Shown in pieces: positions 34,507 through 48,700 of a stretch of DNA of 64,000 nucleotides. Position numbers and translations under genes: made by a program. Within the stretch, counting starts at the first letter, position 1. Every line of letters begins with the position of its first letter. The DNA comes from Terriglobia bacterium (GTDB taxonomy: Bacteria > Acidobacteriota > Terriglobia > JAIQFV01). The notes under the pieces are model-generated. The model searched no databases. It was given only the letters and a program-made list of their open reading frames with translations, and was not told the DNA's origin. The stretch is from positions 9,586 through 73,585 of the forward strand of contig JAIQFV010000002.1 in NCBI GenBank assembly GCA_020073085.1. The letters run 5' to 3'.

Positions 34507-37134
34507 CTATGGTTTCTTGGCGACTGCCAGCGCGGAACCATTATCCGTGAAAAAATTGAGAGTCGTGTTGGCGCCGGCACCGGCACCCAGCAGGATGAAC
34601 TGGGTTTTAAATCCCCCTCCATCGGCAATCTGCGGAAAGACGATCGGGAAGGGCGCCGCCTGGTTGAAGTCCGCAACAGGAAATGTCGTCAGGAGTTGAT
34701 CGCCGCGGGGATTGTCCAGGGAGCGAAGTGTCAGGGCCACAAAAGGCACGGACGAAGCAATATCCAGCACCCCGATGAAGCCCGCAGGGAGTCCAGGGAC
34801 CAACTGGCCGGCGAAGGCCGCCGTATGGCCGCCTCCGGGAAGAACTGGAAAGCCCGGTGCGGGGGCAGCAGGAGTGGTGCCGTCGGTCTGGACGGCTGTC
34901 ACCGTCAGGCTGAGGGCCGCGAAAGGCGCCGGGTTTGCGATTGCCAATCCCGTGTCATGTCTGCCCGCAGCGGTCGTGGATGTATCCACGAAGATCCGGG
35001 CATGAGTCGTCGGGGTAGTGGACGCGATGCCTGATTCCGTGACCAGCACGTTTTCCCGCGTAAATCTGAAGATCCCTGCCGCCACCGGAGTGAAATTGCC
35101 GTTCCGAACAATCTGTACCGAGCCCGTGTTGACCGTCTGCACCAGGCCGGTCGTCTGGAAGATGAAGAATCCACCGGGCGGGATGGAGTAAGGGAAGGAT
35201 GATCCCGCCTGGCCATTGACGAGGGCTGTGTTGAGCGGAAAACCGTCATTGCCCAGGATCTTGATTGTCCCATTGGCAAAAACGCTGGAGGTATTGAGCA
35301 GGTAGAAATCGGTCTGATAGCCGCCCCCGTCGACGAACTGTGGGAAGAACACGGGGTCGGTGGAGGGCGCCTTGGTCAAGTCGGCGATGGGGGTACTGGT
35401 AATGAGGGTTTCACCCCGCTGGTTGGTGGTCAGCCGCAACGCCAGGACGGAAAGGGGTTGGTCACTGCGGAGCTCGAGCGTCGCGAACTGGTGACCGACG
35501 AGGAGTGTGGCCGGCAACACGAAGTCGGGCGCGATGTCGGGAAGCTGGTTGATGAACTTGGCGAGGTGCGCGCCGGCCGGCAAGAGGGCGTGCCCGATGG
35601 CCGTCGGCTGCCCGCTGACCTCGCGCAGGGTGAAGGTGACATTCGCGGTCGCGCCTCCCCGGTTCACGATCGCAAAGCCCGTGTTGATGGTGATTGCCGA
35701 TGCTTCAAGGCGACCGGACTTGGCCGTGTCCCCCGTCTGAAGATCAATGAAGATGCGGGCGGACGTCGTAGGCGGAGAGGCAGGGACCCCCGCTTCGGCG
35801 ACCACGACCCCATTCTGCGTGACGCTGAAGACGGCGGTACCAAAAGGCGCGGTGCCGGAGGTGAGATTGACTACCGCGTCACCCGCTTGAACGAGCCCCT
35901 CGCTCCCCGGGGTCGATGTGGTGTTGGCTCCTCCCGGAAAGACGGGAAGATTGACCGCGTTGGACGGCGTGTTGCAGTTATTGAACAACAGTGCGACGGC
36001 GTTGGAGGACTTGTTGACTACCATCAGGTCGGCCTTGCCGTCGCCCGTGAACACAGCGGTGACGATGGCCTGGGGGCTGGGTCCAGTGGGGAAAGGAACC
36101 GCAACCTGGAAGGTGCCGTCCCCATCGCCCAGCAGAACCGAGACGGAATCGGAGTCTTCATTCGCCACGGCAAGGTCAAGTTTGCCGTCCCCGTTGAAGT
36201 CGGCCACGGCGATGAAATGCGGGGAGACCCCCTGAGTCGAATACTCCACGTGGGATTGGAAAGTGCCGTCCCCCTTGCCCAGCAGAACAGAAACGTTGTT
36301 GGAAAACCGGTTGGCCACTACCAGGTCGATCTTGCCATCTCCATCGAGGTCGGCCGCCGTGACGAATTCCACCCCGGCGCCGGCAATCTGGTTGACAGCA
36401 GTCTTAAAAGTGCCATCGCCATTGCCCAGCAAGATGGATACGGTGTTCGAAGTCTCGTTGGCAACGGCCAGATCCGCCTTACCGTCCCCGTTGAAATCCC
36501 CCACGACCAGGCCCTCGGGACTGGCTCCTGCACTGAATCCGACCGCCTTCTGAAAGGTTCCGTCGCCGTTGCCCAGCAGGATGGTCGCATTGCCATCGTC
36601 TTCGGTGGCCAGAGCGAGATCAGGCCTTCCATCTCCGTTAAAATCGCCTAACACAATGAACACCGGATGGCCGCCCGTGATGAAATCCACCCGGGGCCGA
36701 AACGTGCCGTCTCCATTCCCCAACAGGATGGAAACGCTGTTGGAAAGGCGGTTGGCCACGACCAGATCCAGTTTGCCATCGCCATCAACATCCCCGACCG
36801 CCAGGGAGCGGGGGCCCAATCCGATGACGAAGCTTTGGAACAGGAGGAAGGTCCCGTCGCCGTTGCCCAGGAGAACTGCCACGGTGGAGGTATCCTCGTT
36901 GACCACTGCCAGATCAGCTTTGCCATCAGCGTTGAAGTCCCCAACGGCTATGGAACGAGGGGTCAGACCCGCTGAAGTAACGGTCGGACCATTAAATAAG
37001 GTAGGAGCAGCACAGCTGCCGAGTGTCCTCGATGTCGCCGATACAAAGGCGACGCATAGCATCGCAAAGATGATCAGGGGCGAGCCCGGGCGATTGCATT
37101 TGATACGCATGAGATCTTGCCCAGCGGTGGTCAT
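34507..37134 (-). CDS. Exported VCBS/FG-GAP repeat protein
   Basis: 875 residues. After a signal peptide (SPLIIFAMLCVAFVSA) come seven FG-GAP/VCBS repeats at about 55-390, each with a calcium-type loop such as GDFNADGKADLAV, GDVDGDGKLDLVV or ADLDGDGKIDLVV, and GNGDGTF spacers, forming a beta-propeller. The C-terminal half consists of two similar beta-rich modules (VVAEAGVPASPPTTSARIF versus LVTESGIASTTPTTHARIF; FFPQFVDGGGYQTDFYLLN versus FPQIADGGGFKTQFILLG). Probably a cell-surface adhesion or binding protein. ATG 37134 is preceded by AGGAGG. Confidence 0.9.
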   Translation of the reverse strand: MTTAGQDLMRIKCNRPGSPLIIFAMLCVAFVSATSRTLGSCAAPTLFNGPTVTSAGLTPRSIAVGDFNADGKADLAVVNEDTSTVAVLLGNGDGTFLLFQSFVIGLGPRSLAVGDVDGDGKLDLVVANRLSNSVSILLGNGDGTFRPRVDFITGGHPVFIVLGDFNGDGRPDLALATEDDGNATILLGNGDGTFQKAVGFSAGASPEGLVVGDFNGDGKADLAVANETSNTVSILLGNGDGTFKTAVNQIAGAGVEFVTAADLDGDGKIDLVVANRFSNNVSVLLGKGDGTFQSHVEYSTQGVSPHFIAVADFNGDGKLDLAVANEDSDSVSVLLGDGDGTFQVAVPFPTGPSPQAIVTAVFTGDGKADLMVVNKSSNAVALLFNNCNTPSNAVNLPVFPGGANTTSTPGSEGLVQAGDAVVNLTSGTAPFGTAVFSVTQNGVVVAEAGVPASPPTTSARIFIDLQTGDTAKSGRLEASAITINTGFAIVNRGGATANVTFTLREVSGQPTAIGHALLPAGAHLAKFINQLPDIAPDFVLPATLLVGHQFATLELRSDQPLSVLALRLTTNQRGETLITSTPIADLTKAPSTDPVFFPQFVDGGGYQTDFYLLNTSSVFANGTIKILGNDGFPLNTALVNGQAGSSFPYSIPPGGFFIFQTTGLVQTVNTGSVQIVRNGNFTPVAAGIFRFTRENVLVTESGIASTTPTTHARIFVDTSTTAAGRHDTGLAIANPAPFAALSLTVTAVQTDGTTPAAPAPGFPVLPGGGHTAAFAGQLVPGLPAGFIGVLDIASSVPFVALTLRSLDNPRGDQLLTTFPVADFNQAAPFPIVFPQIADGGGFKTQFILLGAGAGANTTLNFFTDNGSALAVAKKP

Positions 37135-37365
37135 AACATCCTCCTGTTGAGCCCGCAGTACGTCGCGGCGGATGCTCATTTCATATCGTTCAGTCCGTGT
37201 CATTCACGCGCAAAAATCAAGGCCTTGCACACGTGTTTTGATGAGTTCAGCGCTGAGAGATTGGCTACAAAATTTAGTTGGTCTCGGCTATTCGCGATCT
37301 GGTGAAAATTATAGGGCGGTCGTCCGTGAACATGCAAAGAGTTTTATTGCAGGCAACGGGAGATC

Positions 37366-37718: not shown

Positions 37719-37734
37719 CGGAATTAGATTTGCA
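37719..37734 (+). promoter_or_regulatory. Candidate sigma-54 (-24/-12) promoter
   Basis: GG (37720-37721) and GC (37732-37733) are separated by exactly 10 bp, with TTGCA matching the -12 consensus; the -24 half (CGGAATT) keeps only the GG and one other base of TGGCACG. The predicted start near 37745 gives a leader of about 67 nt before the first operon gene. Confidence 0.45.
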
Positions 37735-37811: not shown

Positions 37812-38126
37812 GTGTTTGAATTTGGCGATCCAAAAACGTTTTGGCTCAATGTCACAAACATTGCGCTCGGAGTGGTGACCGGGATCTGTGTACTGATCCT
37901 TGGAAAAGCGGTGTTTCAGGAAGTCGTCCTGCGCATCCGGGCCACCCGGCGCGCGACCGTCAAGCTCGACGACTATTCCTATATGGTTCCCGAACTGGGA
38001 CTGACGATGGCCGATGGTGGCGAACGTCTTGATAAGGACCGATGGAGTCTGAGGGAAGAGAAGCATTGGGATCCTCCGCTCGAGCGATTCGGTGAAGATC
38101 CCAACATTCATCGTTCCGTCAATTAA
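37812..38126 (+). CDS. Small membrane-anchored protein, first gene of oxidoreductase operon
   Basis: 104 residues starting MFEFGDPKTFWLNVTN, one membrane helix at about 14-34 (IALGVVTGICVLILGKAVF) and a hydrophilic 70-residue tail (VKLDDYSYMVPELGLTMADG ... FGEDPNIHRSVN). GTG 37812 is chosen because AAGGAGG is 6 nt upstream; an ORF start at 37743 is not supported. Not recognised. It heads a seven-gene operon for a Qrc-like quinone oxidoreductase and its topology resembles the N-terminal anchor of the last protein of that operon, so a structural subunit or anchor is plausible. Confidence 0.7.
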   Translation: MFEFGDPKTFWLNVTNIALGVVTGICVLILGKAVFQEVVLRIRATRRATVKLDDYSYMVPELGLTMADGGERLDKDRWSLREEKHWDPPLERFGEDPNIHRSVN

Positions 38127-38187
38127 CCGAAGGAAGGAATTCCGAGATCTTGGACCTTTCGGAATTCTGAGGATGACAGGGGGTGTT

Positions 38188-39162
38188 ATGAGATGTCCAT
38201 TTCTCAGGGAAGCGCAAGTGAAATTCTGCAAGTCCTCGGCATATAAGAAGATGATCCTGCGAACTGCGGCCAATGCAAATGGAGAGAAGTGTTCCTTGCC
38301 TGACTATGTGACCTGCCCGGATGCCAAGACGTTGCACGAGGAGCAACCGAGCCAGTCGCACTGCCCTTTCCTCCACGAATCGCTCGTTCAATATTGCTCC
38401 GCCGCTTCCGTAACCAAGTACATCCCTTACAGCGAGTCCCTGCTTTCCCGGTGTGGCAACGAAAGTCACCTTCATTGCGAACTGTACCTGGCGATGGCGG
38501 AACCGGAGGGGCATGACACATCGGCAGCGACCACGTCTCAAAAGGGGTCACAGGAGGTTGCTATGGATGAATGGGTGGAAGGAATCAGGGTGCCTCTCGA
38601 GTTGGGGTACTCGGGAAATCACATGTGGATGGAGACCAACAAAGATGGTGTATGTCACGTGGGGGTCGATGCTTTTCTCACCCGGATGATTGCGGGGGTG
38701 GACAAGTTAAGTTTTCTGACCGCGAACGGCGTCCAACGGCCGACCGCCGTCCTCACCGTGAACGGGGCCGATCTGCACATGGTCTTCCCGTACTACATGC
38801 ACATCACGGGAACCAACAATTACCTGCGGGCCAATCCAGAAAGGCTGGTCGCGGATCCCTATGGTCCGGGATGGTTGTTTGAAGGGGTCGAGCCGAAGGC
38901 TGCGCTTTCAGGGGCGGAGATCGGGGCGCGGGCTGGTCTGGTTCGGGGGAAGGGGGCCGTGGAATGGATGAAGAAGGAAGTGGAGCGGGCTTCGGAATTT
39001 GTCCACGAGCACATTGCCCGGTCGCAACCCGAAGACAAAAGGCTGGTCATGGATGGTGGCATCTTTACCGGTGAGTTGATCCACCACCTGAACCGGGAAG
39101 AGGTGCTGAACCTGTTCAATCAATTCTTCTCTCCCTATGCGAGTTGGAGGCGATGGTGGTAA
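38188..39162 (+). CDS. Cys-rich protein with GcvH-like domain
   Basis: 324 residues. Residues 1-100 are a tandem duplication with four cysteines each: C3-x10-C14-x20-C35-x7-C43 and C59-x10-C70-x18-C89-x7-C97, each starting CPFLxExxVxxC, so two metal or Fe-S sites are likely. Residues about 138-235 are a GcvH fold (NHMWMET, VCHVGVDAFLTRMIAGVDKL, NNYLRANPERLVADPYGPGW). The lipoyl-lysine position aligns with Gly193, so it is not lipoylated there. The C-terminus (DGGIFTGEL...FFSP) matches its paralogue at 44096. No signal peptide. ATG 38188 follows AGGGGG. Confidence 0.75.
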   Translation: MRCPFLREAQVKFCKSSAYKKMILRTAANANGEKCSLPDYVTCPDAKTLHEEQPSQSHCPFLHESLVQYCSAASVTKYIPYSESLLSRCGNESHLHCELYLAMAEPEGHDTSAATTSQKGSQEVAMDEWVEGIRVPLELGYSGNHMWMETNKDGVCHVGVDAFLTRMIAGVDKLSFLTANGVQRPTAVLTVNGADLHMVFPYYMHITGTNNYLRANPERLVADPYGPGWLFEGVEPKAALSGAEIGARAGLVRGKGAVEWMKKEVERASEFVHEHIARSQPEDKRLVMDGGIFTGELIHHLNREEVLNLFNQFFSPYASWRRWW

Positions 39163-39746
39163 AGAACCGCGGAAAACTGATTTTCTTGGCAGGCGTTTTT
39201 GTGATGCTGGTGGTGGGCTGGTTCGGATTTCCACGCATGCTCTACCAAAAGACCAACCAGCCGATCCAATTCAGCCACCGCGTACATACCGGGGACAAGG
39301 CCGGATTGACCTGTGAAGACTGCCACTCGTTCCAGGCGGACGGCCGGTTCAACGGAATCCCTTCCATTAGCAAATGTGCCGGATGTCATGCGGCCCTCCT
39401 GGGCAATTCATCGGAGGAGAAGGTTCTCGTTGAGAAGTACGTGGCGACGAACACAGAAATTCCATGGCTGGTCTATTCGCGCCAGCCCGAAAATGCCTAT
39501 TTTTCTCACGTCCAGCACGTGAGGCTCGCCAAGATCCAATGCGAGCGATGTCATGGACCCCATGGCACGACCGACACCCTCCGGCCCTACGAGAACAACC
39601 GTCTGACCGGGTACAGCCGGGACATCTGGGGCCATTCCCTCTCGCGGATTCATTCCGAGGTGTGGGATGGCAAGAAGATGGATAACTGCGCCTCGTGCCA
39701 TGAGCAGCGGGGGGTCGCGAACAGCTGTCTGCTATGCCACAAATGA
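39153..39746 (+). CDS. Membrane-anchored pentahaem cytochrome c, QrcA-like
   Basis: 197 residues. N-terminal uncleaved anchor (KLIFLAGVFVMLVVGWFGF) exports a periplasmic domain with five CXXCH haem sites: CEDCH, CAGCH, CERCH, CASCH, CLLCH, plus extra His in FSHRVH and FSHVQH that fit distal ligands of bis-His haems. QrcA of sulfate reducers is similar with six haems and is the electron entry of the Qrc complex. Start ATG 39153 overlaps the upstream stop by 10 bp, with GGAGG immediately upstream. Order cytochrome, molybdopterin-family protein, ferredoxin, NrfD is that of qrcABCD. Confidence 0.85.
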   Translation: MVVKNRGKLIFLAGVFVMLVVGWFGFPRMLYQKTNQPIQFSHRVHTGDKAGLTCEDCHSFQADGRFNGIPSISKCAGCHAALLGNSSEEKVLVEKYVATNTEIPWLVYSRQPENAYFSHVQHVRLAKIQCERCHGPHGTTDTLRPYENNRLTGYSRDIWGHSLSRIHSEVWDGKKMDNCASCHEQRGVANSCLLCHK

Positions 39747-39796
39747 GAGCCGCATTCTATGAGACAAGAATCAACTGAAAGGGACTCATTAAACCC

Positions 39797-42022
39797 ATGA
39801 AGATATCGCGTCGGGATTTATTCAAATTCGTGGGGGGATCGGCGGTGGGCGCCTTCCTGACGCCGGTTCCCTGGAAGCTCATCGATGATGCCGCCATCTG
39901 GTCGCAGAACTGGTCGTGGATTCCCCGGCCGCTGCACGGTGAGATTCGCACGAAATTCACCACCTGCACCTTGTGTCCCGCGGGGTGCGGGGTGCGAGCG
40001 CGATGTGTTGGCGACCAGCCCGTCATGCTGACCGGGGTGGCCCAACATCCGGTCAGCCGCGGAGCTCTGTGCCCGGCCGGACTAGGTGGGCATCATCTCC
40101 CCTATCATCCGAGGCGCACAACGCAGCCGCTCCAACGAGTTCAGAAGAACGGAAAGGTCGAGTTTGCGCCGGTGAGTCGAGACGAGGTCGAGACTGCCCT
40201 GGCCGCGGCGATTTCAAAGATGAAAGCGGGCAGTTCCTCCGAGTCCATCGCCGTACTCGATCAACAGCCCGGGCGAACCATTTCGGGGGTTTATCGCGGA
40301 TTCCTGGGTGGAGTGCCGAACGGGGTTTATGTGACCAGTTCGGCCCCCGGCGGTGACACCCTGAGCGCTTTCAAGGAAATCCTGGAGAAGCCTTATGGAC
40401 CGCTCGGCTATGACCTGGAGAACGCGCGGGTGATCCTGAGCTTCGGAGTTCCTCTCCTGGATGGTTGGGGAACGCCCGGCCGGCTGATGGAGATTATCAG
40501 GAATCAAGAATCCAAAAACGCGGAAAAGCGATTGAAAATCATCCAGGTGGAGACGCGGCAATCTCGAACCGCCTCATTCGCCCACGAGTGGGTGCCCATC
40601 AACCCGGGCACCGAAGCGGCATTTGCCCTCGCAGTAGCCCATGTCCTCATTCATGAGAATCTTTACGACCAGGATCTCATCCGACGCAAGGCCATTGAAT
40701 TTCGAAAGAATGATGGCCGCTCGTACCTCGACCTGGTGGAGCATTTCACCCCGGAGAATGCGGCTGCCATCAGCGGGATCGCCCCCGACCGGATCATCGC
40801 GACGGCCCGGACTGTGGCGCAAAGCGGGCCGGCGATTGTCATCGGCGGCGGGGACCCCGGCGGCGGGCCATTGGGGAAAGAAGAAGAGACCGCTATCGCG
40901 GGATTGAACCTTCTCCTCGGCAGCTTCGCGCGTCCCGGCGGGATCGTTCCAAGGCGGAATGTCCCGGATGTTCAGGCGGCCGGCAATCATCCCACGGCGC
41001 CCGCATTGGAAATCCGCGATGTGCCGGACCATTCGATCCGGATTCTCATCCTGGACGCAGCGGAGTCCGGAAACGCGATTCCCTGGGCGCTTTTAGAAAG
41101 GAAACTGGTTCCGCAAGGGGCTCTTGTCGTGAGCCTGTCTCCGTACCTGACAGACCTGACAAAGCACGCCGGCTACATTATTCCGGCGCCAACCTACCTC
41201 GAATCGATCCAGGATGTTCCCGCGCCGGTTGATGCGGCGACCGCTTCTTTCAGCTTGTCAACGGCACTACTGACCGCGCCCGTGGGAACGACTGAACCTT
41301 TTGAATGGGTCAGGCGTCTGGCGAGTGTGGTCGGCGTACCCTTTAGCGATGATGCGCCAGCAAACACCTATGAGTCGCATCTGAAACGCCGTGTGGAGAC
41401 CATTTATCAGAGCAAGCGCGGAACGGTATTCAACTCCAATGATGGAAAGACCGTGCCCATTGCTGAACTCGGTTCTGCCGACCAGCTCTGGAAACTCCTT
41501 TCCGAGGGTGGCTGCTGGATCGATTCCAAAACAGAGACCAAACCCGTGCCAAACTTCTCGCTGCTGGGAAGAATAAAGGACAATTTCGAGCGGCTGCAGA
41601 GCGCGGGGCAGGGGCGGATGATGACGGCACCCGGGCCTGTCGCCGCATTTGGTTTCATCCTCATGCCGTTCGGATGGCGCGGAGCGACCGGAAATGGCCA
41701 GATGTCTCCCCTGATGACCAAGGTATTTCAGGAGTCCGGCCTCCGCAAGCTCTCGGGCCAGGCGGCTGTGAATCCGGAAACCGGCAGGGCGTCTGGACTG
41801 ACCGACGGGGGAAAGGCGTGGATCGAGACCGAAAAGGGTGCCATGCAAGTGGAGATCCGGTTTGACGCTGCCGTCATGCCGAGGGTGATCGAGGTGGCCG
41901 TCGGACCGACGGTTGAGGCATTTAGCATCACAGAAACGCCGGGCACACGGAACATTTTAGATCTGTGCAGCCTTGATGATGCCTGTTCATGGCGAGTGAC
42001 CAGAGCCAGGGTGACAACGTAG
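39797..42022 (+). CDS. Tat-exported molybdopterin oxidoreductase-family subunit, QrcB-like
   Basis: 741 residues. Twin-arginine signal SRRDLFKFVGGSAVGAFL at 4-21. The N-terminal Fe-S motif is C57-x2-C60-x3-C64-x27-C92 (TTCTLCPAGCGV ... GALCPAG). The middle keeps the DMSO-reductase-family framework (VVSLSPYLTDLTKHAGYIIP, IRILILDAAESGNAIP), but I do not see the usual Mo-ligand Ser/Cys segment or strong dinucleotide-binding motifs, as in QrcB and ActB, which lack Mo. It probably connects the cytochrome to the ferredoxin on the periplasmic face. Catalytic molybdenum activity cannot be ruled out from reading. Confidence 0.85.
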   Translation: MKISRRDLFKFVGGSAVGAFLTPVPWKLIDDAAIWSQNWSWIPRPLHGEIRTKFTTCTLCPAGCGVRARCVGDQPVMLTGVAQHPVSRGALCPAGLGGHHLPYHPRRTTQPLQRVQKNGKVEFAPVSRDEVETALAAAISKMKAGSSSESIAVLDQQPGRTISGVYRGFLGGVPNGVYVTSSAPGGDTLSAFKEILEKPYGPLGYDLENARVILSFGVPLLDGWGTPGRLMEIIRNQESKNAEKRLKIIQVETRQSRTASFAHEWVPINPGTEAAFALAVAHVLIHENLYDQDLIRRKAIEFRKNDGRSYLDLVEHFTPENAAAISGIAPDRIIATARTVAQSGPAIVIGGGDPGGGPLGKEEETAIAGLNLLLGSFARPGGIVPRRNVPDVQAAGNHPTAPALEIRDVPDHSIRILILDAAESGNAIPWALLERKLVPQGALVVSLSPYLTDLTKHAGYIIPAPTYLESIQDVPAPVDAATASFSLSTALLTAPVGTTEPFEWVRRLASVVGVPFSDDAPANTYESHLKRRVETIYQSKRGTVFNSNDGKTVPIAELGSADQLWKLLSEGGCWIDSKTETKPVPNFSLLGRIKDNFERLQSAGQGRMMTAPGPVAAFGFILMPFGWRGATGNGQMSPLMTKVFQESGLRKLSGQAAVNPETGRASGLTDGGKAWIETEKGAMQVEIRFDAAVMPRVIEVAVGPTVEAFSITETPGTRNILDLCSLDDACSWRVTRARVTT

Positions 42023-42081
42023 GGGCATCCTGCTGTACGCCCCGACGAGAACGGTAATGCGAGTAGAGAGGGACGACCTCA

Positions 42082-42858
42082 ATGGACACCAAAAACAAGA
42101 AACAACATCGCTACGGAATGGTGATCGATTTGGACAAGTGCACGGGCTGTGGCGCTTGCATGGTGGCATGTGCGGTTGAAAACAACATTCCGCCGGCCGC
42201 AGCCAAGGCGACGGATCGCACCGGGATCACCTGGGTCAGGGTTTACAAGTTCGATAATGGGCTTCCTTTCCCCAACAACCGCAGCGCCTACATCCCGGTG
42301 CCTTGCCAGCAGTGCGGGGAACACACTCCCTGTGTATCGGTCTGTCCGCAGAAGGCGGTCGAAGTCGATGCCGCCAGCGGGATCGTGGCTCAAATCCCGG
42401 TGCGATGCCTGGGCTGCCGGTACTGCATGACGGCGTGTCCATACCATGCCCGTTACTTCAACTGGTGGGACCCCGTGTGGCCGGCAGGAATGGAAAAGAC
42501 GCTGAACCCGGACGTCTCTCCCCGCATGCGCGGGGTGGTGGAAAAGTGCAACTTCTGTCATGAACGGTTGCAGGCCGCGAGGGCGAAGGCCGCCGCCTCG
42601 GGCCGGGACGAAATCGAGTCCGCCGACTACCAGCCTGCCTGCGTTGAGGCTTGTCCGGCCGGAGCGATCACTTTTGGCGACCTGGCCGATCCGGAGAGCG
42701 AAGTCGCCCGGCTGGCCCAAAGCGGGCATGCATTTCGTATGCTCGAATCGCTGGGGACCGAGCCGAAGGTCTACTACCGGTCCGAACAGGCCTGGGTCCG
42801 CCAAGTCGCCCAGCGTGAAGTTCAGAAACCGAAAGCGAAGGAGAAGGTCCATGGATAA
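42082..42858 (+). CDS. Four-cluster ferredoxin subunit, QrcC/NrfC-like
   Basis: 258 residues with four Cys groups: CTGCGACMVAC near 20-30, CQQCGEHTPCVSVCP, CLGCRYCMTACPY and CNFCHERL followed by CVEACPAG. This is the NrfC/DmsB/QrcC layout with up to four [4Fe-4S] clusters carrying electrons from the molybdopterin-family subunit to the NrfD subunit. No signal of its own; such subunits are co-exported with the Tat-bearing partner. The stop overlaps the next start by 8 bp. Confidence 0.93.
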   Translation: MDTKNKKQHRYGMVIDLDKCTGCGACMVACAVENNIPPAAAKATDRTGITWVRVYKFDNGLPFPNNRSAYIPVPCQQCGEHTPCVSVCPQKAVEVDAASGIVAQIPVRCLGCRYCMTACPYHARYFNWWDPVWPAGMEKTLNPDVSPRMRGVVEKCNFCHERLQAARAKAAASGRDEIESADYQPACVEACPAGAITFGDLADPESEVARLAQSGHAFRMLESLGTEPKVYYRSEQAWVRQVAQREVQKPKAKEKVHG

Positions 42859-44083
42859 ACAACTCATCATCCGCGGCGTCAGGAGGAGCCCTCTCTCAAA
42901 GTTCCTGCTGTGGGTTCTTCCCTGGGTCGCCCTTTTGGGATTGGGACTGTATGCCGGGTATCTTTGCCTGGCCAGGGGCCTCAACCAGACCAACATGGAC
43001 AATCGCTTTGCTTTCGGGCTGTGGATCTACCTCGACCTCACCGTCATCGCATTGGGCGCCGGGGCATTTTTTACCGGATTCTTACTCTATATCTTAAAGA
43101 AGGAAGAGTTGAAAGCGGTCATCAACAGCGCGGTGGTCCTGGGACTCATCTGTTACAGCGGGGCGATCGTGGTCCTCATGGTGGACGTGGGGCAGCCGCT
43201 GCGGGCGTGGTTCACGTTCTGGCATCCCAATATTCACTCCATGTTGACCGAAGTGACCTTCTGCATCACGTGCTACCTGGCGGTGCTGTTGTTTGAATAT
43301 GCCCCGCTGGTGTTGCGCAACCGCAAGCTCCGTCAGATTCCTTCTCTCCTGGTGTTCGAGTTCCATTTGCACAAAGTCATGTATGTCCTGGCGGGCGTCG
43401 GGACCTTCTTGTCGTTCTTCCACCAGGGTTCCCTGGGCGGATTGTATGGGGTGCTCCGGGGACGTCCCTTTGCTTTCCGGGAGGGGATCGGGATCTGGCC
43501 CTCGACTTTTTTTCTGTTCATTCTTTCGGCGATTGCCGCGGGCCCGAGCTTCATCCTGTTGACGACGTGGCTTGTCTCCAAGCTGTCCAAGAAGGAACTC
43601 GTGAAGCGGGAGGTGCTCAACCTGCTGGGACGCATCTCCGGTATCCTCTTGGTGGTCTACGTCCTCTTCAAAACGATCGACACTCTCGTCTGGATCAATC
43701 GGACCGCTCCTGCCTCCGGCTTTAATCCCTTCGATTTCTATTCCTGGGAGCCGTTTGGCACCTGGCTCCTATTCGCTGAGATTGTGGTGTGTGGACTGTT
43801 GCCGGCGATCATTCTGCTCGACCGGAAGAGGCGCGAGAAGACCGGCTGGCTCATGTCGGCCGCGTTTCTGGTGTGTGCCGGCGTCATGCTGAACAGGTTT
43901 GTCTTCACCATTCAGACGCTGGCGCTGCCGACACTCCCCTTTGACCGCTTCCTCTCGTATGTTCCAAGCTGGCAGGAAACGGCCACGTTTCTCGCGGTGG
44001 TGGCTTATGGCGTTTTGATCTATTCGCTCTCGTTCAGGTACCTGCCTCTGTTTCCGCAGGAAAAGGAACTCCGGCAATCGTAA
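42851..44083 (+). CDS. NrfD-family membrane subunit, QrcD-like
   Basis: 410 residues, about ten transmembrane helices (WVLPWVALLGLGLYAGYLCL, LDLTVIALGAGAFFTGFLLY, AVVLGLICYSGAIVVLMVDV and so on). PSR/NrfD family quinone-binding subunit; in Qrc and ACIII this subunit exchanges electrons and possibly protons with menaquinone. Conserved polar residues in helices (HPNIHSMLTEVTF, FEFHLHKVMYVL) look like quinone-site candidates. ATG 42851 is inside the preceding gene's end, so translation is coupled. Confidence 0.92.
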   Translation: MDKQLIIRGVRRSPLSKFLLWVLPWVALLGLGLYAGYLCLARGLNQTNMDNRFAFGLWIYLDLTVIALGAGAFFTGFLLYILKKEELKAVINSAVVLGLICYSGAIVVLMVDVGQPLRAWFTFWHPNIHSMLTEVTFCITCYLAVLLFEYAPLVLRNRKLRQIPSLLVFEFHLHKVMYVLAGVGTFLSFFHQGSLGGLYGVLRGRPFAFREGIGIWPSTFFLFILSAIAAGPSFILLTTWLVSKLSKKELVKREVLNLLGRISGILLVVYVLFKTIDTLVWINRTAPASGFNPFDFYSWEPFGTWLLFAEIVVCGLLPAIILLDRKRREKTGWLMSAAFLVCAGVMLNRFVFTIQTLALPTLPFDRFLSYVPSWQETATFLAVVAYGVLIYSLSFRYLPLFPQEKELRQS

Positions 44084-44095
44084 GGGAGGATTTAA

Positions 44096-44941
44096 ATGTT
44101 TCCAGGGGTTTATGGATTCACATGGGAACCCGGCAATCTTATCTTTCTCGGCATCTTTTATTCGGTTTTAGCCACCATTTTTGGCACGGTGGGCATCGCC
44201 CTGGTCCGTACGTTGAAAGATTTTCATGCCCGCAAGGCCGACCATATCCGGTGGGAGCTGGACTTTAAAGATCTGCCGGAGGGCATCCGCACCTGTCGGC
44301 ACGAACTGACCGGCGAATTCAAGCATCGGACCTGCGAAAAAGGCTTTGATTGCCGCTCGTGCCCCGAACACGCGAAGCTCGTGGCCTCAGGGATTCAGAC
44401 CATCCGCCCCCGCTTTGAGAATGAGGACGAAGAAGGGCGCATTCTCGGGTGTGATATGCCGTTGGACCGCCTGTACCACAGGGGCCACACCTGGGTCATG
44501 ACCGAACCGGATGGAACGGCCACCGTGGGGCTGGATGATTTTGGATCGCGCCTCCTCGGTGAACCGGACGAAGTCCGATTGCCCGCTGCCGGAGCCTTGC
44601 TCCATGTGAATGGAACGGCGTGGCATTTCAAAAAGAACGGCTCGGACCTGCGCATTCTGTCGCCGGTGGATGGGGAGGTGATTCAGACAGGTGGAACCAA
44701 GGCGGGATGGTACCTCAAGCTGAAGCCGCTCGGGGAAAAAATGGATACACGGCACTTGCTGCGGGGTGCGGAGATCCGGCCGTGGTTGGCTCGCGAAATG
44801 GAGCGGCTGGAGTTCTCTCTGGCGGCTGATGGCGTGGGAATGAGCCTCGCCGATGGCGGTGCGATGGTGGACGATCTTTCGAAGGAATACCTGTCTGTCG
44901 ACTGGGATGCGGTGTGGGGGGAGATGTTTTTGGAACCGTAG
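44096..44941 (+). CDS. Membrane-anchored GcvH-like protein with Cys cluster
   Basis: 281 residues. One membrane helix at about 14-38, then a Cys segment with C67-x12-C80-x5-C86-x2-C89 (RTCRHELTGEFKHRTCEKGF), then a GcvH-like fold at about 126-215 (YHRGHTWVMTEPDGTATVGL, LRILSPVDGEVIQTGG). The lipoyl-lysine position aligns with Gly182; Lys179 and Lys180 are displaced by two residues or more. The C-terminus (LADGGAMVDDL...WGEMFLEP) matches the paralogue at 38188, so both have Cys domain, GcvH-like domain and the same tail. It closes the operon 12 bp after the NrfD gene. Confidence 0.75.
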   Translation: MFPGVYGFTWEPGNLIFLGIFYSVLATIFGTVGIALVRTLKDFHARKADHIRWELDFKDLPEGIRTCRHELTGEFKHRTCEKGFDCRSCPEHAKLVASGIQTIRPRFENEDEEGRILGCDMPLDRLYHRGHTWVMTEPDGTATVGLDDFGSRLLGEPDEVRLPAAGALLHVNGTAWHFKKNGSDLRILSPVDGEVIQTGGTKAGWYLKLKPLGEKMDTRHLLRGAEIRPWLAREMERLEFSLAADGVGMSLADGGAMVDDLSKEYLSVDWDAVWGEMFLEP

Positions 44942-45126: not shown

Positions 45127-46485
45127 TTATCGCGGTATCTCGAATTTCTTGATGCGTTCATACAGAGTGGACCGATCGATCCCCAGCGCCGCAGCCGCTT
45201 CCTTGATATTGCCATGGGTCCGCTGGATGGTTGCGGCAATCACCTCTTTTTCCAGCTCTTGCAAGGTGACATTGGTCGGGATGGCCCAGCCACGTTTTTC
45301 TTCGACCCGTGGGGTCAGGAAGGTGAAATCCTCTTCTGTGAGGACTCTCCCCCGGCAGGTGACGATGGCGCGCTCCACGGCATTTTCCAATTCACGAACG
45401 TTGCCCGGCCAGTTGTGGTCCAGCAGAAGTTTGAGGGACCCTTCGGAGATATCGCTGACCTCCTTGCCCAGTTCATGGGCGATGCGTTCCACGAAACTCC
45501 GGGCCAGGAGCGGGATGTCCTCGAGGCGATCCCGCAGGGCGGGGATGCGGATATTGATGACATTCAAGCGGTAAAAGAGATCGTCGCGGAACTTGCCGTC
45601 GAGGACCGCTTGCTCGAGGTTGAGGTTGGTCGCCGCGATGACGCGCACATCCACCTTAATCTCCTCGGATCCGCCGACGCGATAGAAGCAACGCTCCTGC
45701 AGCACCCGGAGCAGGTCCATCTGCAGTTTGGGAGAAATATCGCCGATCTCGTCCAGAAAGATGGTTCCGCCATCGGCCATCTCAAATTTGCCCTTCTTCT
45801 GCGAGACCGCCCCGGTGAACGATCCTTTTTCATGACCGAACAGTTCGGACTCCAGCAGGGTCTCGGCAAGGGCGGCGCAGGAGACGCCGATGAAAGGCTG
45901 ATCGGCGCGGTCCCCGGAAAAGTGAATGGCGCGGGCGATCAGTTCCTTCCCGGTGCCGCTCTCCCCCTGCAGAAGCACCGTGCTCCGCAGGCTGGCGATC
46001 TCCTGGATCAGCTGAAAGATCTCGAGCATCTTCGAGTTCTTGCTGATGATGTCGTGGAAGCGGTACTGCTTGGTCAGTTTCTTTCTCAGGATCGTATTCT
46101 CCCGCTGGAGGTTCTTGATCTTGATGATGCGATTGACGAGCAGCGAGATTTCCTCGGGATTGCAGGGCTTGACGATATACTCCTGCGCCCCTTCCTTCAT
46201 GGCGGTGATGGCGGTGTCGACCGTGGCATAGGCCGTGATGATAATGATGGAGGCTTCGGAGTGGATCTTGCGCACCTCCATCATGGTCTCGATGCCGTCG
46301 ATTCCCCCCGGCATTTTCAAATCGATGAAATAGATGGCATAGTCCTTCTGGCGTGCCTTTTCGATGGCGTCGCGTCCGGAGGCGGCCGTATTGACGTCGT
46401 AACCGTCCTCGCGGAGCCAGGCGGCCAGGGATTCGCGCATCACTTCTTCATCATCGACCACAAGAATTTCCCAGTGTGTTTTCAT
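45127..46485 (-). CDS. Sigma-54-dependent response regulator (NtrC class)
   Basis: 452 residues: receiver domain 1-120 with phosphoacceptor Asp55 (FIDLKMPG), AAA+ domain at about 145-375 with Walker A GESGTGKE (174-181), the sigma-54-contact loop GSFTGA at 221-226 (Ser for the usual Ala), and a Fis-type helix-turn-helix at the C-terminus (GNIKEAAAALGIDRSTLYER). ATG 46485 follows GGAGG that lies inside the end of the protease gene. Third gene of the operon kinase - archaemetzincin - regulator. Probable target is the oxidoreductase operon upstream region at 37603-37734. Confidence 0.93.
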   Translation of the reverse strand: MKTHWEILVVDDEEVMRESLAAWLREDGYDVNTAASGRDAIEKARQKDYAIYFIDLKMPGGIDGIETMMEVRKIHSEASIIIITAYATVDTAITAMKEGAQEYIVKPCNPEEISLLVNRIIKIKNLQRENTILRKKLTKQYRFHDIISKNSKMLEIFQLIQEIASLRSTVLLQGESGTGKELIARAIHFSGDRADQPFIGVSCAALAETLLESELFGHEKGSFTGAVSQKKGKFEMADGGTIFLDEIGDISPKLQMDLLRVLQERCFYRVGGSEEIKVDVRVIAATNLNLEQAVLDGKFRDDLFYRLNVINIRIPALRDRLEDIPLLARSFVERIAHELGKEVSDISEGSLKLLLDHNWPGNVRELENAVERAIVTCRGRVLTEEDFTFLTPRVEEKRGWAIPTNVTLQELEKEVIAATIQRTHGNIKEAAAALGIDRSTLYERIKKFEIPR

Positions 46486-46487
46486 GA

Positions 46488-47063
46488 TCAATCCTCCGCA
46501 CCCATAAAATTTGCGGCTTGTTCGTATGTGGCGCCGATGCTCTCGCGCAGAAGCGCGCGGCAACCGGTGCAGAATTCGCTGCCTTTGGTATCAACCTGAT
46601 GAATATTGGTGGAGAGAGACATGGGGCACGTCCGCTCGGGACAATGGATCAGGCCGAAGGTGTGGCCTATCTCATGGAGCGCTTCCTTGACGACCCGGGC
46701 GAGCAGGAGCATCCGGTTGGCCGGAAGTCCGTAGAACTCCTGTCGAAGACGGGCAAGGGAAATGATGGCGACCGTTCCATTCAGCTGGGCCTGTCCAAAG
46801 ATAAAGCTGAGCATGGGAATGAACAGGTCCTTTTCGGTGACCGCCAGGATGCGGGCGGCATCAGGAGGACATTTCCCCACCAGTTGGCGCAGGATGAGGG
46901 TAGAGCCGTACTGCCGGCGCCGCAGGTCGAGCGCGTACTCGGGCTCGGCCGACGGGCCTAAGCGGCGTATCTCAAAACCAAAGTTGGCCCAAAGGCACGT
47001 CTCGATGATGGCGAGTACCTCATCATCCACCGCGCCCAGGGGCGCCAAATAAAGGAAGGTCAC
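46488..47063 (-). CDS. amzA: Archaemetzincin-type zinc metalloprotease
   Basis: 191 residues. The family signature is complete: HEIGHTFGLIHC (H130, E131, H134, H140, C141), C146, M148 in CPM, then C165-x2-C168 (FCTGC), that is HExxHxxGxxHC-x4-C-x-M followed by a CxxC, the second zinc site of archaemetzincins. No signal peptide, hence cytoplasmic. GTG 47063 overlaps the kinase stop (GTGA), and the stop is 2 nt before the regulator ATG, so the protease is locked between the partners of a two-component system. Substrates of bacterial archaemetzincins are unknown; cleaving the kinase, regulator or a subunit of the oxidoreductase is a possibility only. Confidence 0.9.
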   Translation of the reverse strand: MTFLYLAPLGAVDDEVLAIIETCLWANFGFEIRRLGPSAEPEYALDLRRRQYGSTLILRQLVGKCPPDAARILAVTEKDLFIPMLSFIFGQAQLNGTVAIISLARLRQEFYGLPANRMLLLARVVKEALHEIGHTFGLIHCPERTCPMSLSTNIHQVDTKGSEFCTGCRALLRESIGATYEQAANFMGAED

Positions 47064-48700
47064 ATTTTGCTTCCTTTTTCCGCAGTGGCCGCGGGAGCGA
47101 CCTCAGCCACCTTTTGCTCGGGGGTGAGTGGAAGAACCACTCGGAACATGGAGCCTTCCCCCCGCTTGCTCTTCACTTCAATGTCGCCTCCGTGCGAGTC
47201 CACAATGCCGTACACCACGGCCAGTCCCAGGCCAACACTCTTCCCTTCTTCCTTGGTGGAGAAAAAGGGATCAAAGATCTTCGACATGTTTTCCGGGGCG
47301 ATCCCCTCTCCGTTGTCTGCCACTTCCAGAACCGCTTTCGAGCCATTCCCCTGGACCTGGGTCGTGATCGTGACACTGCCCTGGCCCTTCCGGTAGGTTG
47401 CTTCCGCGGCGTTCATTATAAGATTCATCACCACCTGCTGCATCTGAGAGCTGTCACAAGGCACCACGGGAAGGTTCTCCGCAAGGTTCAAATTGACTCC
47501 GACGTTTCCCAGCGCCAGTTTATGGGAGACCAGGGAGAGGGTGGTCTTCACAATGGCATTCAAATCTGCTCGCTTGCTTTGGGGCTTGGAGCGCCGCGAA
47601 AAAGCCAGAAGGTCGGACACGATCCGACCCACCCGAGTTGTCTCGTTCACGACCTGTGAAAGGAACCGCCGGAATTCCTCGATCCGGTTGGGGGGAATGC
47701 CGTCGTCCTTGAGGATGCGCTGCATCAGTTTGGACAGGTTCAGGACTCCCGAGAGCGGATTGTTAATCTCATGCGCCACACTGGCCGAGAGTTGCCCCAG
47801 GGAGGCAAGACGATCGGTCTGCATGAGCTTCTGGTTCGCCGCCTTCAACTGCTCAGTCCTTTCTTCCACCTTGGCTTCCAGGGACTGAAGGAATTGCTCG
47901 TTTTCGGCCATGGATTGCTTTAAGCGTTCTCGCATGACATCAAAGGAGCGGGCCAGCTCTCCCAATTCTTCACTCGATTCCACTTTAATGGGTTTGTCGA
48001 GTTGCATGGCGCTGACCGCTTTGGTCGCGTCAATCAGTTTCCGAATCGGAGCATCGACGAAGTGTTGCGTGAAAAAAATGATGAACAAGCTGACCAACAG
48101 GATGTGGATGCCTGTCGCCAGGTACCCCCGGATTTTAATGTTCGCGACTTCGCGGTCGACGCGATCGAGGTCCAAAGTGACGTCGAGAACGCCCAGGACC
48201 TTCATCTTTTCCGGATGCGCGTGACAGGCTGCCTGGCTGCAGGCCGGTTCATTGTAGATCGGGGTCACCATGGCGAGTTTGCGGCTCCCCTCCGGTCCCT
48301 TAAAAATGCGTGCTCGAGAGGGCACATCCACCTTGACCAGGGGCTGCAAAGAGGAATGGCACAACGCACAGGTCTCGGACCGCCGATCCACTTGCTTGGT
48401 CTCGCCCGGTTGAGTGGAAAACATGACCCGGCCTTCGCGGTTGAAAATCTGAATCGTGTTGATGCCTTGTTTCAGGGCAATAGTCTGCATCATTTCGTAA
48501 GCGGTGTCGCGGTGGTCTGCCAGCATGGCATGCCATGTGGAGCTGGTAATGGCTTTGGAGAGTTGATCGGCACCCTCGATCATCGCGTCGAGAAGCTGAC
48601 GCTCCTGGCTCTTGACATTGATCAGGCCGGAGATGCCCTCCGTCACCCCGACCAATATCATTAGTGAAACAATCAGCTTAAGGGCCAGTCGTCTTCGCAT
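47060..48700 (-). CDS. Membrane histidine kinase with periplasmic haem c sensor domain
   Basis: 546 residues. TM1 at about 8-27, periplasmic domain 28-190, TM2 at about 194-212, HAMP 213-265, coiled coil, HisKA with His310 (SVAHEINNPLSG) and an HATPase (NAAEATYR, DNGEGIAPENM, GLGLAVVYGIV). The periplasmic domain carries CALCH at 111-115 and a C-x4-CH motif (CSQAACH) at 154-160, so two covalent haems are possible, as in redox-sensing kinases of metal and sulfur reducers. ATG 48700 has GGAGG upstream. It should sense redox state or a gas and signal to the sigma-54 regulator two genes on. Confidence 0.92.
   Translation of the reverse strand: MRRRLALKLIVSLMILVGVTEGISGLINVKSQERQLLDAMIEGADQLSKAITSSTWHAMLADHRDTAYEMMQTIALKQGINTIQIFNREGRVMFSTQPGETKQVDRRSETCALCHSSLQPLVKVDVPSRARIFKGPEGSRKLAMVTPIYNEPACSQAACHAHPEKMKVLGVLDVTLDLDRVDREVANIKIRGYLATGIHILLVSLFIIFFTQHFVDAPIRKLIDATKAVSAMQLDKPIKVESSEELGELARSFDVMRERLKQSMAENEQFLQSLEAKVEERTEQLKAANQKLMQTDRLASLGQLSASVAHEINNPLSGVLNLSKLMQRILKDDGIPPNRIEEFRRFLSQVVNETTRVGRIVSDLLAFSRRSKPQSKRADLNAIVKTTLSLVSHKLALGNVGVNLNLAENLPVVPCDSSQMQQVVMNLIMNAAEATYRKGQGSVTITTQVQGNGSKAVLEVADNGEGIAPENMSKIFDPFFSTKEEGKSVGLGLAVVYGIVDSHGGDIEVKSKRGEGSMFRVVLPLTPEQKVAEVAPAATAEKGSKM

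Follow-up and report, generated by a model that had tools for sequence, protein, structure and literature searches.

A variant Qrc locus in a Terriglobia bacterium with an undescribed accessory module that includes two non-lipoylated GcvH-like proteins

The window analysed here is a stretch of 64,000 nucleotides on contig C2 (GenBank JAIQFV010000002.1) of a 5.79 Mb acidobacterial genome, that of a Terriglobia bacterium, which is 98.7% complete. At 37812-44941 on the forward strand it carries the genes g1, g2, qrcA, qrcB, qrcC, qrcD and g7 in that order. An earlier note made from the sequence of the window had described seven same-strand genes here as a Qrc-type quinone oxidoreductase operon with two GcvH-like proteins, and all seven were present at these positions. 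They constitute a Qrc variant with an undescribed accessory module, the products of g1, g2 and g7. The scores in the list refer to NCBIfam models, with the equivalog cut-off in brackets.

37812..38126, + strand: g1, small single-pass membrane protein of 104 amino acids (aa) with the tail ELGLTMADGGE
38188..39162, + strand: g2, soluble and predicted to be cytoplasmic, with two four-Cys modules, a GcvH-like domain and a DGG tail
39153..39746, + strand: qrcA-like, membrane-anchored pentahaem cytochrome c; NF041781, 214 bits (180)
39797..42022, + strand: qrcB-like, Tat-exported molybdopterin-family protein with a [4Fe-4S]-type Cys motif; NF041783, 297.6 bits (440)
42082..42858, + strand: qrcC-like, four-cluster ferredoxin; NF041782, 381.7 bits (400)
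42851..44083, + strand: qrcD, quinone-reactive membrane subunit of the NrfD/PsrC type; NF041784, 592.5 bits (570)
44096..44941, + strand: g7, N-terminal transmembrane helix, four-Cys module, GcvH-like domain without the lipoyl lysine, and LADGG tail

The start codon of g1 is the GTG at 37812, with AGGAGG in front of it, and g2 most probably starts at the ATG at 38188 (MRCPFLREAQ), so that g1 and g2 need not overlap. The overlapping of several genes reported earlier holds for the end of g2 with qrcA (start ~39153) and for the end of qrcC with qrcD (42851). Rfam and tRNA searches of the window gave no match. The genome collection contains a near relative, Terriglobia bacterium SRVP_39 (L045), the QrcD of which is 96% identical.

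QrcA and QrcD pass their equivalog cut-offs and the four genes have the order of Qrc, which upholds the assignment to a Qrc-type complex; the cofactor and export motifs that had been read from the four proteins were all seen. The five CxxCH motifs of QrcA recur in 65 of 66 homologues. QrcB has the Tat-type signal SRRDLFK and the motif C-x2-C-x3-C-x27-C, the general form of which (C-x2-C-x3-C-x(20-36)-C) is kept in 59/61 homologues, and all 16 cluster cysteines of QrcC are present and conserved among its homologues. The earlier note had allowed for the pterin-family protein grouping with another dehydrogenase, but a periplasmic dehydrogenase or reductase was ruled out, the best NCBIfam match being QrcB (NF041783, 297.6 bits vs 157.6 for PhsA). 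QrcD matches both the NrfD and the QrcD models; a single-sequence search of solved structures with QrcD found no relative, and a search of plasmids found distant HybB/NrfD proteins only.

The identical order of the four core genes is found in QrcABCD of Nitratidesulfovibrio vulgaris (Desulfobacterota), and the residues essential in its QrcD (D70, Y110, S138 and Y150; PMC13059093) pair with the invariant D62, Y102, S130 and Y142 here by a constant offset of 8, a correspondence that is positional only. The equivalent of Tyr113 of QrcC is likewise shared, as the tyrosine of a CxGCRYC motif present in 80/80 relatives. Because the essential QrcD residues and this tyrosine are conserved, the reaction is likely to be one in which menaquinone is reduced and the protons are taken up from the cytoplasm. 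The differences from the known complex are that QrcA has five haem motifs, whereas six haems are described for Qrc of the Desulfovibrio type (PMC8076601); that QrcB, which has no redox cofactor in N. vulgaris (PMC13059093), here has a motif for a putative [4Fe-4S]-type cluster; and that the window has three additional proteins and an adjoining cassette of kinase, M54 and NtrC genes. Related pterin-like, ferredoxin and NrfD modules together with a multihaem cytochrome also occur in Alternative complex III. In that quinol:cytochrome c oxidoreductase a single fused protein (ActB) contains both the pterin-like and the ferredoxin part, whereas here the two are separate genes best matching the Qrc models.

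No Pfam or NCBIfam family was matched by g1. The matches of g2 and g7 to Pfam GCV_H are marginal (22.6 and 27.9 bits vs a cut-off of 22.2) and both score far below the NCBIfam GcvH cut-offs, while Foldseek comparison of their AlphaFold2 models (g7, pLDDT 89.4 and pTM 0.83; g2, pLDDT 83.9) with the PDB gave H-proteins as the best matches (E 1e-7). The models thus predict an H-protein fold for both, in common with GcvH and LbpA-type lipoate-binding proteins, from which g2 and g7 differ in their Cys modules, the transmembrane helix of g7, the DGG tail, the setting in a quinone-complex operon and the loss of the lipoyl lysine. At the lipoyl column K is found in the separate GcvH that the genome encodes, in 0/45 g2 homologues and in 5/61 sequences of an alignment combining g7 homologues with wider relatives, in agreement with the earlier claim that both proteins are non-lipoylated. 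All eight cysteines of the two g2 repeats (C-x10-C-x18/20-C-x7-C) are invariant in 45 sequences, and the four of the g7 module (C-x12-C-x5-C-x2-C) are invariant or nearly so. A tree places g2 (support 1.0) and g7 (support no higher than 0.39) in separate clades within a wider non-lipoylated family. A further GcvH-like protein of the same genome (152 aa, L041 9226-9684, C2:123.7 kb) keeps the lysine at the lipoyl column; its neighbours, read from sequence only, are a low-molecular-weight phosphatase-like open reading frame (ORF), an OsmC-like ORF and ABC-type export genes.

A transmembrane helix with a positive C-terminal side was found in 73/73 g7 and 55/55 g1 homologues and none in g2. By the positive-inside rule g1 would be oriented N-out/C-in, and the bulk of both g1 and g7 would lie in the cytoplasm. 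The three proteins have a tail motif (M/L)ADGG in common, in g1 as T(M/L)ADGG; ADGG or DGG is present in the tail of 72/73 g7, 54/55 g1 and 52/52 g2 sequences, and ADGG in 4/334 Qrc subunit sequences. The motif alone should not be over-read, since it is also present within the AAA+ domains of NtrC proteins.

A scan of genome contigs with a QrcD alignment gave 118 relatives, of which 80 were kept, from the Acidobacteriota, Ignavibacteria/Bacteroidota, Kryptoniota, KSB1, Eisenbacteria and Myxococcota. The carriers include dozens of unrelated bacteria of soils and sediments. Profile annotation found all seven genes in the order g1-g2-qrcA-qrcB-qrcC-qrcD-g7 in 47 of the 49 loci with enough contig, so that chance neighbours were rejected and both GcvH-like genes, together with g1, emerge from the search across genomes proposed in the earlier note as fixed companions of Qrc. 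Presence where testable was 76/76 for g7, 49/51 for g1 and 53/56 for g2; exceptions to the full order are L083 and L118 (Myxococcota, without g1 and g2), L094 and L102. Most of the genomes surveyed are metagenome-assembled, and single gene absences are therefore weak evidence. In several ignavibacterial Qrc loci two g7-type genes follow one another (L115 5594-6307, L117 3268-3990, L232-L234).

Because the first scan was built from this clade, the test was repeated with the NCBIfam QrcD model. Strong QrcD was found in 5/396 genomes of Acidobacteriota, in 2/169 from the phylum to which the Myxococcota locus L083 belongs and in 20/178 from the class to which the Ignavibacteria locus L050 belongs; g7 lies beside every one of them (5/5, 2/2 and 20/20, 27/27 for the three samples combined). 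The QrcD scores of the acidobacterial sample are bimodal (at least 569 bits, then 176) and the genomes with strong g7 orthologues (at least 460 bits, the next 130) are the very same five; the independent occurrence of GcvH-like genes that would have told against the link was thus not obtained. The association of g1, g2 and g7 with Qrc is real and broad, and no literature was found joining GcvH with Qrc, NrfD or HybB, in keeping with the earlier suggestion that the extra proteins are new to Qrc.

Qrc counts as a hallmark of sulfate respiration, and the earlier note had made the connection with sulfate reducers. This link fails for most carriers. In contrast to Desulfobacterota Qrc, the carriers here are mostly without dsrA, which was above cut-off in 2 of 13 carrier genomes (L063, which is CO124, and L085) and in the nearly complete genome of the window not at all. 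The PF00374 model, of the [NiFe] hydrogenase/Nuo49 type, was matched in 12/13 carriers, and the genome of the window has a full-length large subunit. The metagenome-assembled genome CO124, which has dsrA where that of the window has none, is from a sulfate-reducing acidobacterium whose qrcABCD was transcribed under anoxia, according to the passages available of its description (PMC10564751); those passages do not mention the extra genes g1, g2 and g7. The CO124 locus belongs to the same clade and has the identical seven-gene order, with M54 and NtrC genes adjoining.

Three further genes lie downstream on the opposite strand, in overlapping or abutting frames, and a candidate promoter lies upstream.

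37719..37734, + strand: candidate sigma-54 (-24/-12) promoter CGGAATTAGATTTGCA, 93 nt before g1
45127..46482, - strand: sigma-54 response regulator of the NtrC type, the final gene in the kinase-M54-NtrC operon
46488..47063, - strand: archaemetzincin-like peptidase (Pfam M54), overlapping the kinase gene
47060..48700, - strand: histidine kinase whose extracytoplasmic sensor part contains CxxCH and CxxxxCH motifs

The archaemetzincin has an intact HExxHxxGxxHCx4CxM...CxxC motif and a Pfam M54 score of 90.3 bits (cut-off 24.4); no report linking an archaemetzincin with a histidine kinase was found in the literature. The trio adjoins the Qrc cluster in 33/80 loci, and many of the others end too early to tell. 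A sigma-54-like site scoring at least 16.5 precedes g1 in 36/55 relatives, against 2% of shuffles, which keep base composition only, and 8% of control regions before g2 and g7. The candidate site of the window itself is weaker (15.5), and many relatives have a near-consensus site at the same place. Directly upstream of the cluster (34507-37203, - strand) lies a gene whose large, exported-looking product has many FG-GAP/VCBS-like repeats.

The preferred explanation, in which moderate confidence can be placed, is that g1, g2 and g7 are cytoplasm-facing accessory subunits of the Qrc variant that tune QrcD or tie the complex to kinase/NtrC control. Electrons would pass from periplasmic c-type cytochromes to the five haems of QrcA, to the clusters of QrcC (perhaps also to that of QrcB) and on to QrcD, and QrcD, to judge from its conserved essential residues, would reduce menaquinone with protons drawn from the cytoplasm. 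On the cytoplasmic side the fixed partners would be g1 and g7, held by their membrane helices, and g2 as a soluble protein. The non-lipoylated H-protein fold of g2 and g7, with its metal-binding-looking Cys module, may serve as a docking or switch domain, and the ADGG tails of all three probably bind one common partner. Their most likely effect would be to tune the cytoplasmic face of QrcD or to couple the complex to the c-haem kinase/NtrC system next to it, which probably switches on the operon through the sigma-54 promoter.

Several observations weigh against this explanation. QrcB and QrcC miss their equivalog cut-offs (297.6 vs 440 and 381.7 vs 400 bits), for which reason the locus is filed as a Qrc variant and not as a canonical member. 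Desulfovibrio Qrc functions with four subunits (PMC13059093, PMC6303296), the four-gene makeup of Desulfobacterota qrc loci being taken here from the literature, so g1, g2 and g7 are not needed for the basic reaction; g1 and g2 are moreover not indispensable, because two Myxococcota loci (L083 and L118) are without both. The parallel divergence of g7 with QrcB (Spearman 0.70) and with QrcD (0.52), equal in the latter case to that of QrcB with QrcD (0.52), speaks for a partnership, but such correlations are also to be expected for any genes inherited as one operon. At three loci (L156, L165 and L166) GcvH-like genes accompany the trio and the stretch read contains no NrfD; a signalling role would explain this better than that of a subunit.

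These loci belong to a wider family outside Qrc. Genomes that lack Qrc encode GcvH-like proteins of this type next to a QrcC-like ferredoxin and NrfD, and usually next to the kinase/M54/NtrC trio as well; genes of ~530, 450 and 180 aa beside such loci had been considered as a cytochrome bc set, which was rejected when Pfam identified them as histidine kinase, NtrC and M54. Among the matches listed at least 70 of 114 GcvH-like matches lie within 10 kb of NrfD, at least 88 of 114 within 10 kb of NrfD or M54, and at least 50 of 113 M54 matches within 10 kb of NrfD or a GcvH-like partner. That the archaemetzincin is always linked to GcvH-like genes was rejected, about half of the M54 matches listed being solitary. 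At L156 (2328-7731) a kinase with an Fe-hydrogenase-like domain adjoins M54, NtrC and a GcvH-like protein carrying both types of Cys module known from g2 and g7. At L173 (5374-6492, - strand) a membrane-anchored protein joins a response-regulator receiver domain to a non-lipoylated GcvH domain, with NrfD and a haem kinase as neighbours, and open frames of ~376 aa at GcvH-like matches in many genomes suggest that such fusions may be common in one genus. The genome of the window has a second locus of GcvH-like protein, QrcC-like ferredoxin and NrfD (C8:139855-142677; L040, 9855-12677), the flanking genes of which encode multihaem cytochromes (16 and 5 CxxCH) and a Rieske-like protein.

A regulatory role is accordingly a serious third option beside the subunits or maturation factors proposed in the earlier note, since the wider family adjoins NrfD modules other than Qrc, the kinase/M54/NtrC cassette and a receiver fusion. 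The GcvH-like proteins would then be signalling adaptors that, with a c-haem or hydrogenase-like kinase, M54 and NtrC, sense the redox state of the quinone complex and control its expression or turnover, and the ADGG tails might serve for docking or be cleaved. This gene context strengthens the signalling reading beyond what the earlier note could see: the cassette stands beside 33/80 Qrc loci and most of the non-Qrc GcvH-like loci read, GcvH-like genes are mostly close to NrfD or M54 among the matches listed, the L156, L165 and L166 loci and the fusion at L173 are of the kind to be expected, and a sigma-54-like promoter precedes g1. Set against this, the three proteins sit in fixed order within the structural operon and the cassette is on the other strand, part of the loci have no cassette that could be found (contig ends explain some), and half or so of the M54 matches listed stand alone; signalling as the explanation is possible but doubtful.

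It is unlikely that g1, g2 and g7 act as factors for assembly or maturation, whether in cluster or metal insertion or in quality control before Tat export. Their Cys-rich modules with invariant cysteines, their probable cytoplasmic location and their position in the operon would all suit such factors, but by the literature Desulfovibrio Qrc is made without them, two of the three (g1 and g7) are membrane-anchored in all homologues, proteins of the GcvH-like family are also found with NrfD modules in quite different surroundings, and Pfam and NCBIfam showed no relation to a known chaperone family. It is highly improbable that g2 and g7 are ordinary or degenerate lipoyl carriers that transfer electrons or acyl groups in the manner of GcvH or LbpA, in spite of the Pfam GCV_H match and the H-protein fold, since the lipoyl lysine is absent (0/45 for g2, 5/61 for the g7 alignment), their GcvH scores are poor and the genome has a GcvH of its own.

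With the accessory-subunit explanation still preferred for the locus itself, a broader proposal can be put forward tentatively: that DGG-tailed, non-lipoylated proteins of the GcvH fold with Cys modules are membrane-side partners of an undescribed redox-signalling system, made up of a c-haem or hydrogenase-like sensor kinase, the archaemetzincin and NtrC, which would monitor and control several NrfD-type quinone complexes, Qrc included. The ADGG-tailed proteins may be substrates of the archaemetzincin. To our knowledge Qrc is the one NrfD-type complex that has been shown by experiment to be electrogenic. A widespread form of Qrc outside the sulfate reducers, with three conserved proteins on the side of proton uptake, would alter the role presumed for the complex as well as its composition. 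There is also reason to ask what H-protein domains do when they are not lipoylated, and the archaemetzincin now has a redox sensor and a sigma-54 regulator as partners in a defined operon, which makes the function of this peptidase testable.

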